Source of the DNA: Apostichopus japonicus
Lineage: Eukaryota; Echinodermata; Holothuroidea; Aspidochirotida; Stichopodidae
NCBI RefSeq assembly: GCF_037975245.1
Contig: NC_092581.1
Location: 7,777,501 to 7,841,500, forward strand
DNA length: 64,000 bases
Direction: 5' to 3'
Of this stretch, positions 3,950 to 51,935 are shown one piece after another. The translations under genes were made by a program, and so were the position numbers. The first letter of the stretch is position 1. Each line of letters begins with the position of its first letter. The notes under the pieces were generated by a model that saw only the letters and a list, made by a program, of their open reading frames with translations, searched no databases and was not told where the DNA came from.

Positions 3950-5875
3950 GTGAAAGCTAATAAAAGCTCCGAAAAATTCCGCACCACCAACAGGGAGCTA
4001 CAGACTACAAGTAGTCACTCAAAAGCCCAAAATCTTCGAAAAGAAGCAGAAACACTAAAAAAGTTCGTAAAGAACCTATCAGACAGAAACATGTCCAATA
4101 TAGAGTTTATTGCGCTGGGAAAAGGTCTGAAGTTCATAGCAACTCCAGTAAACCTAAACGAAGTGATCTTCTCAAGTCATTAAAAGACCTAAAAAGAAAA
4201 ATGAGAATCCGCTTCATCATTCAGAATAAAATGCAAAAAGGGATTACAAAATTCCGTCTACCCTCTACATGGTCACCAAACATGACTTTTAGTAAAAACC
4301 TAAAGGACTAATTGGAAGCAACACAAACCGAAATGGCACGTGTTACTATCCGAAATGCCAATAGCAACACGCATAAAGCGGAGCGCTTTGCACTAAATGC
4401 AATTACAAACGACCGCTCTATTATTGTCAAACCCTTCGATAAAGGTAGAGGCATTGCTATAATGAATCACTCAGACTATCAAGCCGAAATTGAAAGGCAA
4501 TTAGCTAGTCACCACTACGCAAAGTTAGAAAGTGATATGACGTTTCAAACTAAAAGTTTAGTCCAGGAAACACTAATTGAAATGTTCTCTGCAAAAGAGA
4601 TAAAAGCACCTTCGAGTACTTATCACCATATAGCCATAAGATCTGCACACCGGTCATATATGTGCTACCAAAAATTCATAAAGCACCCCCGGCTAACTCA
4701 AAATTTGCCGGTAGACCGATAATAAGTGGAAACGGATCACCGACCGAAAAAATATCGGAATTTGTGGACTATTTTTTGCTTCCTATTGTAATAAAACAAA
4801 GCACTTATGTGAAAGACACAAATCACATTCTGCAAATTTTGGAAGCCATCCCGTTACCAAAACGGTAGCACTTGCTGTACTCGATGTCGTCGCCATGTAT
4901 ACAGATACTCCCCAAAAGGAGGCATTAGATATATGTCAAGAAGTCTATGAAAAGACGGGAAAAAGCGAATATGGGATAAATAAAATATCTTCCATATCCA
5001 TGCGCAAACTAATTGAACTCATCTTAACAAGAAACTGTTTCGAGTTCAATAACCAATTCTATCTACAAAAGATCGGTTGCGCCATGGGTAGCCAAGCCTC
5101 TCCGGAAATCTGCGATATCGTCATGCATAGACTTGAAAACCAGATTTTACCGACAGATAATAAAATCTCAAAATGGCTCCGCTATAGTGATGACATTCTA
5201 TTGCTCTGCGACGGTACACATCAGGAACTTGAACACATAGTAAAAAGGTTGAATGAAATTCACCGCTTCTTAAAGTTTACGGTAGAAATATCACAAACCG
5301 AGGTAACATACCTAGATTTGAAAATCTTCAAAGGTCCAAGGTTCGAAACCAATGGGTTATTAGACACTAAAGTCCACACCAAACCCACGGAAACCTTCCA
5401 ATACCTCGACAGAAACTCTGCACACCCACTTGCCACTTTTAAAGGCTTCATTAAAGGGGAAATATTACGATACGCACGTCTCTGTAACAACAGAAAAAGA
5501 ACGCGTTCACAGAGAAACTGTTACTCAGTAGCTATAAGAAAGAGGAAATTGCCACAGCCACTAAAGGCATAAAATTTGAAAACCGTAGGCATTACCTCAC
5601 TACCAAACCTAAACAAAAGGAACCACCACTGGTGTTCAAGCTTACCGTGACCCCATATCAAAACCACGCATTTGAAAGAAAAAGGACTTTTGAAACATTG
5701 GCACTTAATTTCGCAACACGCGGAATTATTAAAACTGTTTCCAAAAGAACCGATTCTTGCCTACAAAAGGGCCCAAAATCTCAAAGATTTACTTGTTAAC
5801 TCAAGGTTTCGTACTAACGAAGACTCAGCTGACTCTCAAGGTTCACACGAAGCTCTTTTAGATGCTCTTATATAG
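3950..5875 (+). pseudogene. Penelope-like element reverse transcriptase, frameshifted
   Basis: Conceptual fragments across at least four frame changes match the Penelope-like (PLE) reverse transcriptase in order: N-terminal LGKGLKFIATP (about 4115), KPFDKGRGIAIM (about 4430), LPKIHKAPP and GRPIISGNGSP (4665-4740), YTDTP (4898), CAMGSQASPE (about 5080), the catalytic RYSDDILLL (5183-5194 for YSDD), KFTVEISQTEVTYLDLKIF (about 5275) and the C-terminal LKHWHLI ... LFPKEPILAYKRAQNLKDLL (5690-5800). Stops at 4181-4183 and 4866-4868 and several shifts make it nonfunctional. The usual zinc-finger plus GIY-YIG endonuclease tail is not seen after the last motif, so it is an endonuclease-minus type or 3'-decayed. 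Confidence 0.92.
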
Positions 5876-42743: not shown

Positions 42744-43996
42744 AGGAATTGTCTGGTGGAAGATTTTGATACATTGTCCTTGTAGTTATTATTTTTCTCT
42801 TTCTAACCATGTAAAAATTGTCCCCATTCGACATTTTCTTCTTGTAGAAATCTGGTTTTCAAATTCACCAGTTTCTCACCAAAAGTACCGTTTGTTCGAA
42901 CGCTTCAATATGGTGTTTGACGTAGTGCTTGCAGATAGGCAAAACAGGCGACTTGAAGTTAGCACTCCCAATTCCGCAGCAAATTAACTCACGTGTAAGC
43001 ACATTGAATTGCCTCATATATATAACGTACATACTCGCGAACGTATATACTACGATGCTCAGTTGGTGTACTTGTATAGCGTTACACATAGTACACTCAC
43101 ACTCAAACCACAGTTCATTAACTGTTCTTCGAACTCGCGGAAATAAAATTCACAGATCAAATTAACAGTAAAAGGAAACTTATAAAGTATTCGTTAAACC
43201 GAAAGATGAAACTTGGCGGGATCGATGTCATCGCAGAACTGTCCGATTGTAAACGTTACAGTAGCCTATACACGCGAACATTCTTCGCGCTGGAGCTGGA
43301 TACCGCGATGTATAAACAACGAAGAGCCTGCTGTTAAAACTTATCTTGTGTTACACAAAGACCACGAAACCACCGATCTACTAAATATATTGCGGCTTAA
43401 GGAGTTTTTTATATCATATCTAATTTATAAGAAATTTCACCGGAAATTATTGAAGAAATTGATCGAATCGTTGTCAGAGCAGAATATAGCGCTGAAAAGC
43501 TTAGGCTTCTCAGAACTGTCCGATTGTCAACGTTTGAGTACAGCCTACATGCGAACATTTTTCGCGTTGGAGCTGGATAGCGCGATGTATAGCCTGAACA
43601 ACTCAGAGTCTGCTGTTAAAATTTACCTTGTGTTACACAAAGACCACGGAACCACCGCTCAAGTACATGGTGGCTTAAGGAGTTTTTGAAAACATAACTA
43701 ATTTTTAAGAAATTTCACCGGAAATTAAGGAAGAAATTTATCTGTATACACACGCTGGTTTTGTTGTGATTACCGTATAGGTACTGTGCGGAGGGTGGGT
43801 TATGACGCAATCTGCTATGGCAGAGCTGACGTCACGTATTGTACTGTTCAAATCATATTTGAAGTGTCTATCCATAACGATTAAAAAATCGTTTCTCTGT
43901 CAAACGCAACATTAGCGTTCTCATACTTTGACAACATGTTTGGAAAATTATTTACTATTTTTTAAGGTAACTTCTTTGGGCCACCAGACAATCCTT
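42744..43996 (+). mobile_element. TTAA-flanked element, copy A (1253 bp)
   Basis: Flanked by TTAA on both sides (42740-42743, 43997-44000). Termini AGGAATTGTCTGGTGG and CCACCAGACAATCCTT form 16-bp inverted repeats with two mismatches. A TTAA target duplication is typical of piggyBac and Kolobok transposons. Inside, a roughly 280-bp block beginning CAGAACTGTCCGATTGT is duplicated in tandem (from 43231 and 43510). No transposase. Orientation is assigned arbitrarily as +. Confidence 0.88.
43230..43730. repeat. Internal ~280-bp tandem duplication of copy A
   Basis: The block with ACTGTCCGATTGT, CGCGCTGGAGCTGGAT-like, TTGTGTTACACAAAGACCAC and GAAATTTCACCGGAAATTA phrases occurs twice. The same duplication is present in copy B, so it predates the spread of this subfamily. 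Confidence 0.8.
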
Positions 43997-46160: not shown

Positions 46161-47422
46161 AAGGATTGTCTGGTGGCCCAAAGAAGTTACCTTAAAAAAT
46201 AGTAAATAAATTTCCAAACATGTTGTCAAAGTATGAGAATGCTAATGTTGTGTTTGACAGAGAAACGACTTTTTAATCGTTATGGATAGACATTTCAAAA
46301 TGATTTGAACAGTACAATACGTGACGTCAGCTCTGCCATAGCAGATTGCGTCATAACCCACCCTCCGCACAGTACCTATACGGTAATCACAACAAAAACC
46401 GCGTTTGTATACAGATAAATTTCTTCCTTAATTTCCGGTGAAATTTCTTAGAAATTAGATATGTTTTCAAAAACTCCTTAAGCCACCATGTACTAGATCG
46501 GTGGTTCGGTGGTCTTTGTGTAACACAAGGTAAATTTTAACAGCAGACTCTTCGTTGTTTAGGCTTTACATCGCGCTATCCAGCTCCAATGCGAAGAATG
46601 TTCACATGTAGGCTATACTCAAACGTTGACAATCGGACAGTTCTGCGAAGCCTAAGCTTCTCAGTGCTACATTCTGCTCTTACAATGATTCCGATAAATT
46701 TCTTCCAAAATTTCCGGTGAAATTTCTTATAAATTAGATATGATTTCAAAAACTCCTTAAGCTGCCATATATGTAGTAGATCGGTGGTTTCGTGGTCTTT
46801 GTGTAACACAAGATAAGTTTTAACAGCAGACTCTTCGTTGTTTATGCATCGCGATATCCAGCTCCAGCGCGAAGAATGTTCGCGTGTATAGGCTACTTTA
46901 ACGTTTACAATCGGACAGTTCTGCGAAGCCTAAGCTTCTCAGTGCTACATTCTGCTCTTTCGGTGTAACTAATACTTTTCAAGTTTCATTTTACTGTTTA
47001 TTTGATCCGTGAATTTTATTTCAGCAATTTCGATGAACAGTTTATGAACTGTGGTTTGAGTGTGAGGTTACTATGTGCAACGCTATACAAGTACACCAAC
47101 TGGGCATCGTAGGATATACGTTCGCGAGTATGTACGTTATATATATTAGGCAATCCAATGTGTTTACACGTGAGTTTATTTGCTGCGGAAATGGGAGTGC
47201 TAACTTCAAGTCGTCTGTTTTGCCTATTTGCAAGCACTACGTCAATCACCATATTGAAGCGTTCGAACAAACGGTACTTTTGGTGAGAAACCAGTTGGTG
47301 AATTTGAAAACCAGATTTCTACAAGAAGAAAATGTCGAATGGCGACAATTTTTACATGGTTTGAAAGAGAAAAATAGTAACTACAAGGACAATGTATCAA
47401 ATTCTTCCACCAGACAATTCCT
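46161..47422 (-). mobile_element. TTAA-flanked element, copy B (1262 bp), inverted
   Basis: Reverse-complement copy of the element at 42744-43996, with the same termini, the same tandemly duplicated interior block (ACAATCGGACAGTTCTGCG near 46630 and 46908) and flanking TTAA (46157-46160, 47423-47426). The right-hand TTAA is shared with the next element. No transposase; the conserved short frame RQNRRLEVSTP in both copies reflects shared ancestry only. Confidence 0.88.
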
Positions 47423-47783
47423 TTAAAGAGGCCATGACACGAAAAATCCAACTCATCGAAAGTAACTTCCTCTGAATCTATGAGAAAATCTATGTTCAAA
47501 ACTATCCTCAACACCTTGAAAACCTCAAGGACTAATTAGTAATTAACGTTTTAATATTCGCATCCGAAAATAGATATCTGAGAATGCGATTTCACAACAA
47601 GACAATGATGACGTCATGTTAGGAACACACGTGCAAAGCTCAGGCATGTATCGGATGCGCGACGATCATACCGTTCCATATACAGTACACGCACATTTAC
47701 ACTGAGAGAACAACCACTGTATTACGCTATATCGTTAGAAATTTCAAGTTTGTTTTACGACTGTTGTAAAATATCCGAGAGAA

Positions 47784-47992
47784 ATGCCGGTCCGTTGTGT
47801 TGTTGGGGCTGCATAAATATCATTACCCATGCAATTAGCCTTCATCCATGGCTGAAGGACGAAAAAAAACACGGCGATTATGACCAAGTTAGTGCACAAC
47901 ACCAGCGCCGATTTCACTGGGCCTAGCCAGTATGCAGCTCCGAATGAAGCGAACACTTCACGGAAGCATACTACGATCCCTCCTTTTTGTTA
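47784..47992 (+). pseudogene. THAP zinc-finger domain remnant
   Basis: Starts MPVRCVVGA, then in shifted frames HPWLKDEKK, MTKLVHNTSADFTGPSQYAA and SEHFTEAYYDP. These are successive pieces of a THAP C2CH DNA-binding domain (N-terminal Cys, the HPW motif, SEHF and YDP). At least three frame changes and a stop make it nonfunctional. It sits 360 bp inside the left terminus of the TTAA element, where a transposase N terminus would be expected. What follows is not recognisable. Confidence 0.78.
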
Positions 47993-49360
47993 TGAAATAA
48001 AACAAATGGACTTTAACGGTTCGACATAAAAGAGTCATTCTTCTGTCAAGTAATCCACAAAAAACTACTCTGAAGACCAGATCGGGGAACAGGAAACCTC
48101 CAATGGGGCAAGTGGCGATCCTTAGGAGGTAGCGCGCCGAGCACTAGTAGTACTATAGTATTAGCGTTACTACACTGAAGTCGCAATAGACGAAGAGATT
48201 TTACTGTATCATCAAAATTAACACCCCCTTCATTGCTCTATTGTATACTAATAAGCTATGAGGTTAGCTTCAGAAGCGATGGGTTACATCTTCTTGTGAA
48301 CAAATCTCAGTGCCCCAATTTATTTCTGGAATATGCTGGATCAGTTAATTATAGCAATAATTTCTTATTCCTATTCCAGGAAAACCATTTATTATGTTGT
48401 GGAGGGAGTGGGGATGGGTCAAAATAGGTAGGTAAAAAGATTTTATTCCAAAGGTTGTTTAATTAAATCTCAAAGCGATTTATTTTAAAGTCACAGAGCC
48501 AAAAATTCACACAACATAGTTCAAGTGTTAAATCATTGAACAAAATTTATTCAATATCAGTTCTAGACAGTCATTCTGGACAATCTGAACTAACATTAAC
48601 AACAATCATTGTATTATATGACATAAAAGTAAAACTGTACTTTCCATAAACATTATCATTCTTAAATTACACTAATGTAATTTGTGACATCAAAGGAGGT
48701 TAAAAGAAAACAACTTACATGAATTTTTTTGCTTTAAGCCTACAAAGCAGTTGCATGTCCATCGCTATCAATCGTTGTTGTGACAAATTAATTAGAATAA
48801 TCCAGAAGCAAATACAATACAGGGTTATTTAAACCAAGAAACACTGCACGACGCAACTCATATGCAAAAATGTTACCCACGCAGGACGACATGTACAACA
48901 CTGATGGGCAATGTGAAACACAGCATCACACGCATTAAAACAATCGAAGACCATTAACAGGGTGTACTGCTGAGTTTTTGAAGAAAGACTACAAAACAAA
49001 CCAACTGCTGCTGAAGAAACAGTCTAAACATTCAAGAGTTCTGCTGCCTCCATTGGTCTTTATTATGACTTTTCTGTCAAATATCATTGGTGATATGGAT
49101 ATTTTGGCTTCCAGATTAAAGGTACGAATCAACAAGGTAAATGCCCCTAAAAAGATCAATGCCCGTTCCCTTATGCACATATTATATGACATCACGGTCA
49201 CACCAATACTTGTGTCTAAATGCTTCAAATCATGCCTTTTCTTTTATTGTTGATGTTGGGTCTGGAAAATAACCTTTTCATCCTGAATTAAAAGTCTTGA
49301 ATTTCAATATATCAACACTGAGGGAACCCTGACGGATTGATAATCCAACACAATCGTAGT

Positions 49361-49544
49361 TTAGAAAGGCTTCCTATACAATGAGTTTTCTCCTGGCAAC
49401 TTGAATCCAGTGTAATGACCATTGGCTGGAAAATCACTTCTGATCCTTTGGACTGCACATGATGGTAGCACAACCCTGACGTGTCTTGCTAGGAACCCCA
49501 AGTATCATTGAACCTGTTGACCGTAGGCTATGTATCTGTACTGC
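49361..49544 (-). pseudogene. P2X7 cytoplasmic (ballast) domain, C-terminal exon remnant
   Basis: Following an acceptor TTTTTTCCCAG, the - strand reads YRYIAYGQQVQ, stop, YLGFLARHVRVVLPSCAVQ, then RIRSDFPANGHYTGFKLPGE, ending at TAA (49361-49363). The block LPSCAV-RIR-FP-GxYTGFK matches the end of the P2X7 intracellular domain family. The internal TGA replaces a position that is usually Trp. No P2X channel sequence is present: only the cytoplasmic domain family, as in stand-alone invertebrate proteins. Confidence 0.78.
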
Positions 49545-49970
49545 CTGGGAAAAAATTTATGAAAGTTCAAAATGTATTAATGTTGGCCATGATGTCCACA
49601 ATAACAAGCAGGCACACAATGTACAGTTATGGTTACATTTGTTGTGATTTTACACCTTCCATGTATCATGAAACATTCTTTTGTTTCAGAAAATTGATTT
49701 GCAAAACTCCAGGCCAAAGTACTAGCCAAGTAATAATGAGTATGAAATAACACATATGCCTACCTAGCATGGCTGCATAATGCAACTTACATCCCCGAGC
49801 CAAACTTTCAGTATGCAACCAACCCTACTAGTACTACACACTCTACATATGGGTTGTAAGTTACCGTAACACAACGCACAATACGGTTTAGGGTGTTCCG
49901 CGAATTCCAACAACACATGCACAAAATGGACTGGATTTTGTTTTTAAATGCTTCGTTAATAAATTCTTAC

Positions 49971-50245
49971 CACGTTGTATGTTCCTTGCAATGGTTTCGA
50001 ACGGATTTCTTCTTCGATATGTTGTGGAGCTTCAATTTCGGCTCGTTTAACAGGCTCGAACTGATACGGTTCTAACACCTCCGCTCCACCCTCAGCGTTC
50101 GGTTCAATATTGGAATGATCATCGCCTTCACTCTCTGCTTCGAATATGAGAAAGGGCACTCTAATTATAGCCCAATTTCACTGCCTAGTGAAGAACCATT
50201 ATCACTTTGAACTTCGGTTGCCGCATTTGGCTCTGGATCCGCCAT
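49971..50245 (-). pseudogene. P2X7 cytoplasmic-domain-like protein, N-terminal exon remnant
   Basis: On the - strand ATG at 50245 opens MADPEPNAATEVQSDNGSS and runs to a stop. After a one-base-type shift, the frame GDDHSNIEPNAEGGAEVLEP continues into PYQFEPVKR and ends at a good donor, GTG|GTAAGA (49971/49970). Acidic N termini with a PYQFEP motif are typical of invertebrate proteins carrying the P2X7 receptor cytoplasmic domain. The Cys-rich core expected next was not found in the following 430 bp. Confidence 0.65.
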
Positions 50246-50582
50246 TTCACAGGAAATTTTGATTTGATATCGCACTTGTGATCGGTGTTTTGTTTAGTAA
50301 CTACTAGTGGTATGTGTACTTGTCTACTGTGTACGTGAATGGTACCGTAGCAGCGACAACAAATATGTGTTCAAAACGTGACGTCACATGACGTCATGCG
50401 AATCGGAAAATTTTCGAGTAAACAAAGTTTCAAACGCCGAAAAGGGTAAATTCATTCTCAATTTTCGACTTGAAAAATCAAGTTTTAAACTGGCAGATTG
50501 GTTGATACATGTTTTAGAGAACATTCTTTAATGGATCCCAAAAATATAGGACTTTGAAATTTTCGTGTCATGGCCACTTTAA

Positions 50583-51935
50583 ACACCTCCAAGCCCATTT
50601 AACACATGATTCCTTGCCTACCATAAGAGGAAGTTATGGGATGGTGATAGCATTTGTGTGAGGGTGTTTAAGCGTACTCTGTGTGTATCTGTCACTATGC
50701 GATGCATTGATTTTTGTAAATACTGTAACTACAAAAAGGAAACGTTGGATTAATTTAAAGAAAACTGTAGGATCATGAACTTAATACTATATGTGGTACG
50801 CACATCCACCTTATTGAGTACAACAAATTTAGAATGTTCATCTGCTTCTTAAAATTATAAAATGTCTTCAGTTCTCTTTGTTTTAGAAAACACATTTTAA
50901 AAGATACAAAATCTACATGGAGGTTGACATTAAATGATCGCTGTACATCATTCACCTAATTGGACCTTATAGTTCTATGGATCGCAAGATCACTTGTGTC
51001 ATTAATAAAATTTCTTTTTAATGTTTGTGCAAACACAGGCTTTGGTCAGTAGTTTGATATTTCACAGTATGTTCCATTTTGCTCACATCATGATTCTAAT
51101 CAATGTAATATGAATTATGAAGTATGGAATACTTAACTAGTTTCTGCAATGTTCTTTTATGATTGGAAGTGGAATATACTTAGGTAAGTTTGTGCATTGC
51201 TCTGTACCTGCATATCAGTATTACAGTGAAACAAATTGCACAGTAGAGGTTCAGCTTTGTGCAAGTTTTTTTTCACTGTAATATTGATATACAGGTACAG
51301 ACTCCATAGCAAAACCTTCTTTCAGCAACTTTCACTCAAACCAGATTGGTTAAAGAGATTATTTACACTTATTTGATTTACCTCTTAAGATTTAATTTTC
51401 TATCTCCTTGATTGGTTTATTAAAGCTTTGCAGCAAACTTTCCTTCAAAACTAGGACAGGACACAGAAACCACTTACTTGAAATGAATAGCTACTTTTCT
51501 AGTGAGTTTATGTACACAGGGACAAATAACTTAATTGACAATACAGTGCACTTAAGTACAGTGTTAAATACAGTGCTTATAGTACGCTATTGAGTAGGAT
51601 GTGGCCAAAATTGACAATGAGTCTGTTTATGCTTCAGAAAGTCTTTAAAGTGACTAATTGAGTTTACTACTAAAGCACTGCTTCTGAGCACAGTAGCATG
51701 TTTTAATAGTACTTTTGTTGAATTTGCAGTACAGCAGTATAGTAGTATGAATTAATTGGTTCATATTTGTTTTGTAGTGTAAGGTTTTGCCACACAGCTA
51801 AGATTAGCAATATTCAACAAGAGGCCAATTCATCTCATTACCAGCAAACACTGATATCAAATTATTATTTGTTTTTGAAGTTTTTACATGACTGCATGTA
51901 TTTGTGAACCCTACACTGAACAATTTTTCCTTTTT
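50583..51935. other. Unassigned intergenic sequence
   Basis: No gene recognised. Near 51205-51300 there is an inverted pair of roughly 25 bp (GTACCTGCATATCAGTATTA and TAATATTGATATACAGGTAC) that could be the end pair of a very small inserted element. Confidence 0.35.

Follow-up and report, generated by a model that had tools for sequence, protein, structure and literature searches.

A transposon-like unit with two gene remnants

The window, i. e. the whole stretch of 64,000 nucleotides analysed here (C21:7777501-7841500 of the host genome), contains a unit with TTAA on both sides in which remnants of two genes face each other. Its features are as follows:

47423-47426, no strand: left target-site duplication TTAA (from the sequence)
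47427-50578: the element, 3,152 bp, with TTAA on both sides
47427-47451, plus strand: left terminal inverted repeat, starting with AGAGGCCATGACACG (arm comparison and sister copies)
47784-48205, plus strand: THAP finger exon, broken, from the N-terminal portion of a transposase gene of Kolobok type (tblastn with the THAP of sister element L011, alignment of sister copies, frames)
48206-49396, no strand: internal region in which a transposase is undetectable (transposase queries)
49397-49552, minus strand: KolX / P2RX7_C (ballast domain), last exon, matching profile positions 143-192, with one in-frame TGA
49956-50177, minus strand: probable first KolX exon, with the PYQFEP motif at 50069-50052 (alignment and motif)
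50554-50578, minus strand: right terminal inverted repeat (arm comparison, genome-wide end matches, sister copies)
50579-50582, no strand: right target-site duplication TTAA (from the sequence)

The original prediction had placed a 3.15-kb TTAA element with matching termini at 47427-50578, and these coordinates are exact. The inverted ends, AGAGGCCATGACACG and AGTGGCCATGACACG, are repeats of each other over the terminal 25 bases with few mismatches; the arms 47422-47451 and 50554-50583 are 90% complementary over 30 nt when the TTAA is counted in. The 4-bp target duplication TTAA of Kolobok transposons is present on both sides, and the termini, AG on the left and CT on the right, have the form 5'-RR / YY-3' that is given for Kolobok ends, unlike those of piggyBac (PMC9587614). 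AG ends together with TTAA are also listed in a study on Xenopus, in which THAP domains are described as usual in Kolobok transposases (PMC6004289).

The TTAA flanks would also suit an element of the piggyBac type, another user of this target, and a KolX-like protein has been reported from a small number of piggyBac families (PMC9587614). However, the window element begins with AG, matching the Kolobok purine pair, it carries a THAP remnant, and relatives that share its layout have a THAP exon and encode a transposase with the motif DVWH. Termini of the piggyBac type start with CCY. As the ends in the window begin with AG instead, a piggyBac identity was rejected and we regard it as highly improbable.

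Other repeats and frames were noted elsewhere in the window. Two arrays of a 278-bp unit (43234-43742 and 46414-46959) lie directly left of the element, about 3 kb apart, and have similar translations on opposite strands. A 19-bp tandem repeat with about 72 copies occupies 625-1989, and at 4715-5572 on the plus strand an open frame of 285 aa contains a reverse-transcriptase domain (39.3 bits).

The THAP and KolX remnants

A broken THAP finger had been predicted on the plus strand, and it was recovered with the THAP exon of L011, a sister element with the same ends whose exon matches Pfam THAP with 51 bits. In tblastn this exon matched 47784-48205 with E-values of 1.7e-12 and 8.8e-7, and it matched all ten sequences tested (its own source L011 and the window included). 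The profile search proposed as a check was less successful: no Pfam match to THAP was obtained in the raw frames of the window element. The THAP of a more distant element on C9, described below, matched five sister copies and gave no match to the window copy at an E-value of 0.05. The window exon contains several frame breaks, some of which are common to sister copies in the alignment. The THAP domain of Kolobok transposases is present here as a broken remnant.

The Kol0 group of Kolobok encodes, besides the transposase, a second protein termed KolX, which resembles region 476-595 of human P2X7 and adopts the cytoplasmic ballast fold (Kojima and Bao 2022, PMC9587614). Two broken exons of the P2X7 domain had been predicted on the minus strand. 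For the last exon this was borne out by the suggested P2RX7_C search of the window frames: the frame 49361-49504 (minus) matched the Pfam profile with 25 bits (E 2e-5, cut-off 23.5), and with the TGA read through, 49397-49552 (minus) covers profile positions 143-192 with 41.6 bits. When aligned with its counterpart in an intact relative, the final exon of KolX, the window exon scored 133, whereas the best of 300 shuffles scored 43. The second gene of Kol0 elements is thus represented by a broken last exon in the window and by an open one in relatives.

The evidence for the other exon came out weaker. The PYQFEP exon (50177-49956, minus) scored 44 against exon 1 of the intact relative, a score that 2 of 300 shuffles equalled, and it had no match to Pfam P2RX7_C. 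A scan for motifs of this type was blank in 12 of 15 sources and positive in three, among them the window. The exon is nevertheless believable because it is colinear and because similar motifs, namely PYMYEP (L032), PYTFQ (L024) and PYMFEP (L035), occur in other KolX first exons; it is probably the first exon of KolX. The middle, cysteine-rich KolX exon, which binds zinc, was not detected in the window element: the scores of the two queries were reached by 101 and 88 of 300 shuffles.

The in-frame TGA of the last exon is common to all eight aligned copies, the window counted. The window copy is unable to encode a working ballast domain, and as the stop is present in all of these copies and the zinc-binding exon is undetectable, it cannot have delivered the domain. 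Since lesions are common to the copies, coding capacity was gone before those copies spread. Diversity in the KolX exon of this dead family is lower than the mean of the element (0.0081 versus 0.0166). However, a value this low occurs in 16% of windows of equal length, which gives no grounds for inferring selection on the exon.

Transposase queries had no match in the window element at E<=0.01, and the exons of the C9 element had none at E<=0.05. A DDD/E transposase with the C/DxxH motif, as expected of Kolobok, was likewise not detected in the window family. The family was therefore filed as a non-autonomous derivative and not as a full member.

Copies of the element in the host genome

A search with the termini, also suggested in the original prediction, covered all 35 contigs (671.6 Mb) of the host genome, with one mismatch allowed. 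Window-type ends were matched at 484 places, 238 forward and 246 reverse; the reversed-pattern control gave none in either orientation. Among the first 100 of the 484 ends, 66 formed 33 convergent pairs, 28 of them spaced by 3.0-3.3 kb. TTAA was present at both ends of all nine two-ended copies fetched, the search pattern itself containing TTAA. Three copies are uninterrupted and identical to the window element to 95.7, 96.8 and 98.7% over the full length, and further copies are interrupted by inserts. The mismatch divergence between eight copies amounts to 0.8-2.5%.

The KolX last exon was found in eight of ten sequences tested (the window counted), the exceptions being L011 and L019. A KolX match was present in at least 17 of the 33 convergent pairs from these first 100 ends. 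This number is a lower bound: it is based on 40 P2RX7_C matches on C1-C8; C1:13936481 (which falls in no pair) and all of C9 were omitted. The match at C9:15626136, within the sole C9 pair, is uncounted, and the pairs L012 and L015 were scored as misses, yet carry the exon; L019 is without it.

These copies bear on another explanation, in which the termini had inserted by chance around a decayed host gene. That the window holds only broken exons would fit this. However, the unit recurs in its entirety, with its exons, elsewhere in the genome, with 95-99% identity and TTAA at both ends. Because the last exon recurs inside such copies on other contigs, an origin of the exons from a host gene, which the original prediction had named as a finding that would overturn it, can be ruled out, and we give chance insertion practically no credit.

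Family members lacking the P2X7 exons had been named as a second finding of this kind, and here the outcome is mixed: L011, L019 and L030 share the ends and have no KolX match. All three fall short of the window element in length and gave no transposase match; for these reasons we read them as deletion derivatives, which leaves descent from an element with two genes standing. L011 and L030 represent a distinct form of about 2.1 kb. It has the window-type ends, its THAP exon is open, and neither KolX nor a transposase was matched in it.

An autonomous element with window-type ends was not found. On C1-C8, the contigs that the first 100 ends appear to cover in full, the closest transposase match lies about 81 kb from such an end (on C7, judged by eye). 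L029 and L030, which are among the best matches to the L011 THAP exon, showed no transposase with the queries used.

Intact relatives with two convergent genes

Elements in which both genes are preserved were found elsewhere in the host genome. Three copies of the L026 type, 99.3-99.8% identical, have uninterrupted frames for a 550-aa transposase and a 169-aa KolX, which face each other. The more distant element at C9:10667453-10678562 comprises 11,102 bp, or 11,110 with both TTAAs. Its AG-terminal ends match in 16 of 16 positions (AGGACATGTGACACGG), and it carries THAP and transposase exons on the plus strand and KolX exons on the minus strand; a second copy, compared over 6 kb, shows 99.6% identity. 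The structure of the KolX gene differs by element type: the KolX domain lies in one open frame in L026 and is split over exons in L031/L032. The KolX protein of L026 aligned with solved P2X7 chains with a best E-value of 4.3e-22, over chain residues 465-592.

The transposases of the two-gene relatives contain the motifs GDGR[CS]DSPGH, TD[AR]H and DVWH, read by eye. In Pfam the L026 transposase was identified as Mutator-like only (33.2 bits), and two transposase exons of the C9 element had no Pfam match. The assignment to Kolobok rests on the TTAA target, the AG ends, THAP, the motif DVWH (DxxH), which like the others was read by eye, and KolX. By the end scan no TTAA ends were found for C17b (L024/L025) and C12 (L020/L021), and a single weak internal pair for C17a.

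At the C12 locus (C12:21119000-21131500, L020 and L021) three features sit between the KolX gene and the Kolobok-type transposase: the frame of a YqaJ-type nuclease (51 bits), a THAP exon and, judged by eye, a transposase-like frame. This insert may be an ISL2EU-like element nested in a Kolobok element.

The P2RX7_C search of the genome yielded 150 scored matches, all above the curated cut-off, of 471 candidates. A Kolobok-type transposase core match lay within 6 kb of 32 of the best 57 of these, and all 32 pairs are convergent. Two null models of random placement were run with 2000 trials each; the mean was about 0.17 pairs and no trial exceeded 2, with 30 Mb assumed for contigs of unstated size. 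The inputs were the 57 strongest of the 150 P2RX7_C matches and 85 of 93 transposase matches, the remaining eight being second pieces of loci already counted.

The pairing decides largely against cargo capture. According to this explanation, a Kolobok-like transposon acquired pieces of a P2X7-like host gene in the manner of Pack elements, and KolX would not be a transposon gene at all. The window copy, with its mere fragments, and the undetected transposase in the copies tested agree with that. Yet KolX repeatedly adjoins transposase genes and is convergent with them in all 32 pairs, and the pairing occurs in at least two element types of unlike gene structure (L026 on the one hand, L031/L032 on the other). 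Furthermore, the P2X channel matches of the host, five exons that all lie at C15:15.10-15.19 Mb, have no P2RX7_C match adjoining them among the 150 scored of 471 candidates. Cargo capture of the Pack type is largely ruled out by the 32 convergent pairs and appears very improbable to us. The original prediction had supposed that the domain may be a second gene of Kolobok-like elements, and for the host genome the convergent pairs and the intact two-gene elements uphold this.

Identity of the window element and its relation to known systems

The window element has the layout of the intact two-gene relatives minus the middle. We are highly confident that it is a gene-dead, non-autonomous DNA transposon of the Kolobok superfamily, similar to Kol0, which was most likely spread in trans after the middle had been lost or had decayed. 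The ancestor would have had short inverted ends at TTAA and, enclosed by them, two convergent genes, one for a transposase with THAP and DDE domains reading from the left end and one for KolX, the ballast-fold protein, from the right end. The middle, including the catalytic core of the transposase and the zinc-binding KolX exon, would then have been lost or have decayed, and the leftover 3.15-kb unit would have spread to a few hundred copies by means of the transposase of a related element that recognises window-type ends. The ends with their TTAA flanks, the copy number, the two gene remnants, the common lesions and the intact relatives of like layout are observed. As no autonomous element with exactly these ends was found, we infer both that the unit moved in trans and which element moved it.

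With the Kol0 lineage (Kolobok-1_XT and relatives, PMC9587614) the element shares the TTAA target, the purine-pair ends and, in the intact relatives found here, the combination of transposase and KolX. It differs in that the window copy is non-autonomous, with the transposase core and the KolX zinc exon undetected and THAP and KolX broken. The T2-MITE of Xenopus, a presumed non-autonomous Kolobok (PMC6004289), is likewise non-autonomous and has the TTAA target, AG-type ends and many copies. In contrast to its end motif AGGRR, that of the window family is AGWGG, and the family, with a length of about 3.2 kb, has kept remnants of genes. The cytoplasmic ballast domain of P2X7 is homologous to the intact KolX of the host genome, as the alignment with the solved chains indicates. 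There it is part of an ion channel, whereas here it is a transposon gene, and in the window a dead fragment.

Implications for the origin of P2X7

Kojima and Bao (2022, PMC9587614) proposed that KolX fused with a P2X4-like gene to give P2X7, and they regard the zebrafish protein Nanor as a likely domesticated KolX. Thus KolX as a second gene and its link to the P2X7 tail, which the original prediction had drawn as a possible route and which is right as a proposal, have been in print since 2022 (PMC9587614). In a word search no mention of THAP was found in the main text of that paper, and none of transposition, THAP or stand-alone forms in Rump et al. 2020 (PMC7016195).

The window element belongs to a known kind of transposon, of which it is a new, dead member; by itself it contributes no more than a further high-copy derivative without working genes. 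The present analysis adds this further non-autonomous family and the genome-wide count of KolX-transposase pairs. The count gives independent, permutation-controlled support on the scale of a genome that the P2X7 ballast domain is the ordinary second gene of Kolobok transposons, and the pairing lends weight to the hypothesis, already published, of how P2X7 came by its tail. In addition, the THAP finger and KolX are placed within one element. The P2X channel of the host shows no sign of a fusion with KolX (150 of 471 P2RX7_C candidates scored).

The last KolX exon, together with its splice-acceptor context, is retained in several non-autonomous families and in subtelomeric units. These exons could form a genome-wide reservoir of ready-made ballast exons for splicing into host genes. 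We consider this unlikely; if true, such a splice-in step would have made P2X7 from a P2X4-like gene.

Copies of the last KolX exon recur near six contig ends at distances of 168-243 kb (among 150 scored of 475 candidates), namely at C19:31.27-32.39 Mb, C20:0.24-1.38 Mb, C4:29.07-29.52 Mb and the starts of C21, C14 and C11, in a single orientation relative to the contig end. This looks like a very large subtelomeric repeat unit. Three stretches of 5-6 kb (L036, L037 and L038), of which C19 contributes two and C20 one, are 99.46% identical; they contain the right portion of an element related to that of the window, with 81% identity. In L036 and L038 the KolX frame is open over 103 aa, in L037 over 63 aa. 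A second KolX-bearing repeat family is represented by L034 (C1:11676000-11682000) and L035 (C5:16492000-16498000), which are 90-93% identical in the pieces common to both and carry KolX exons, L034 with a THAP remnant as well.
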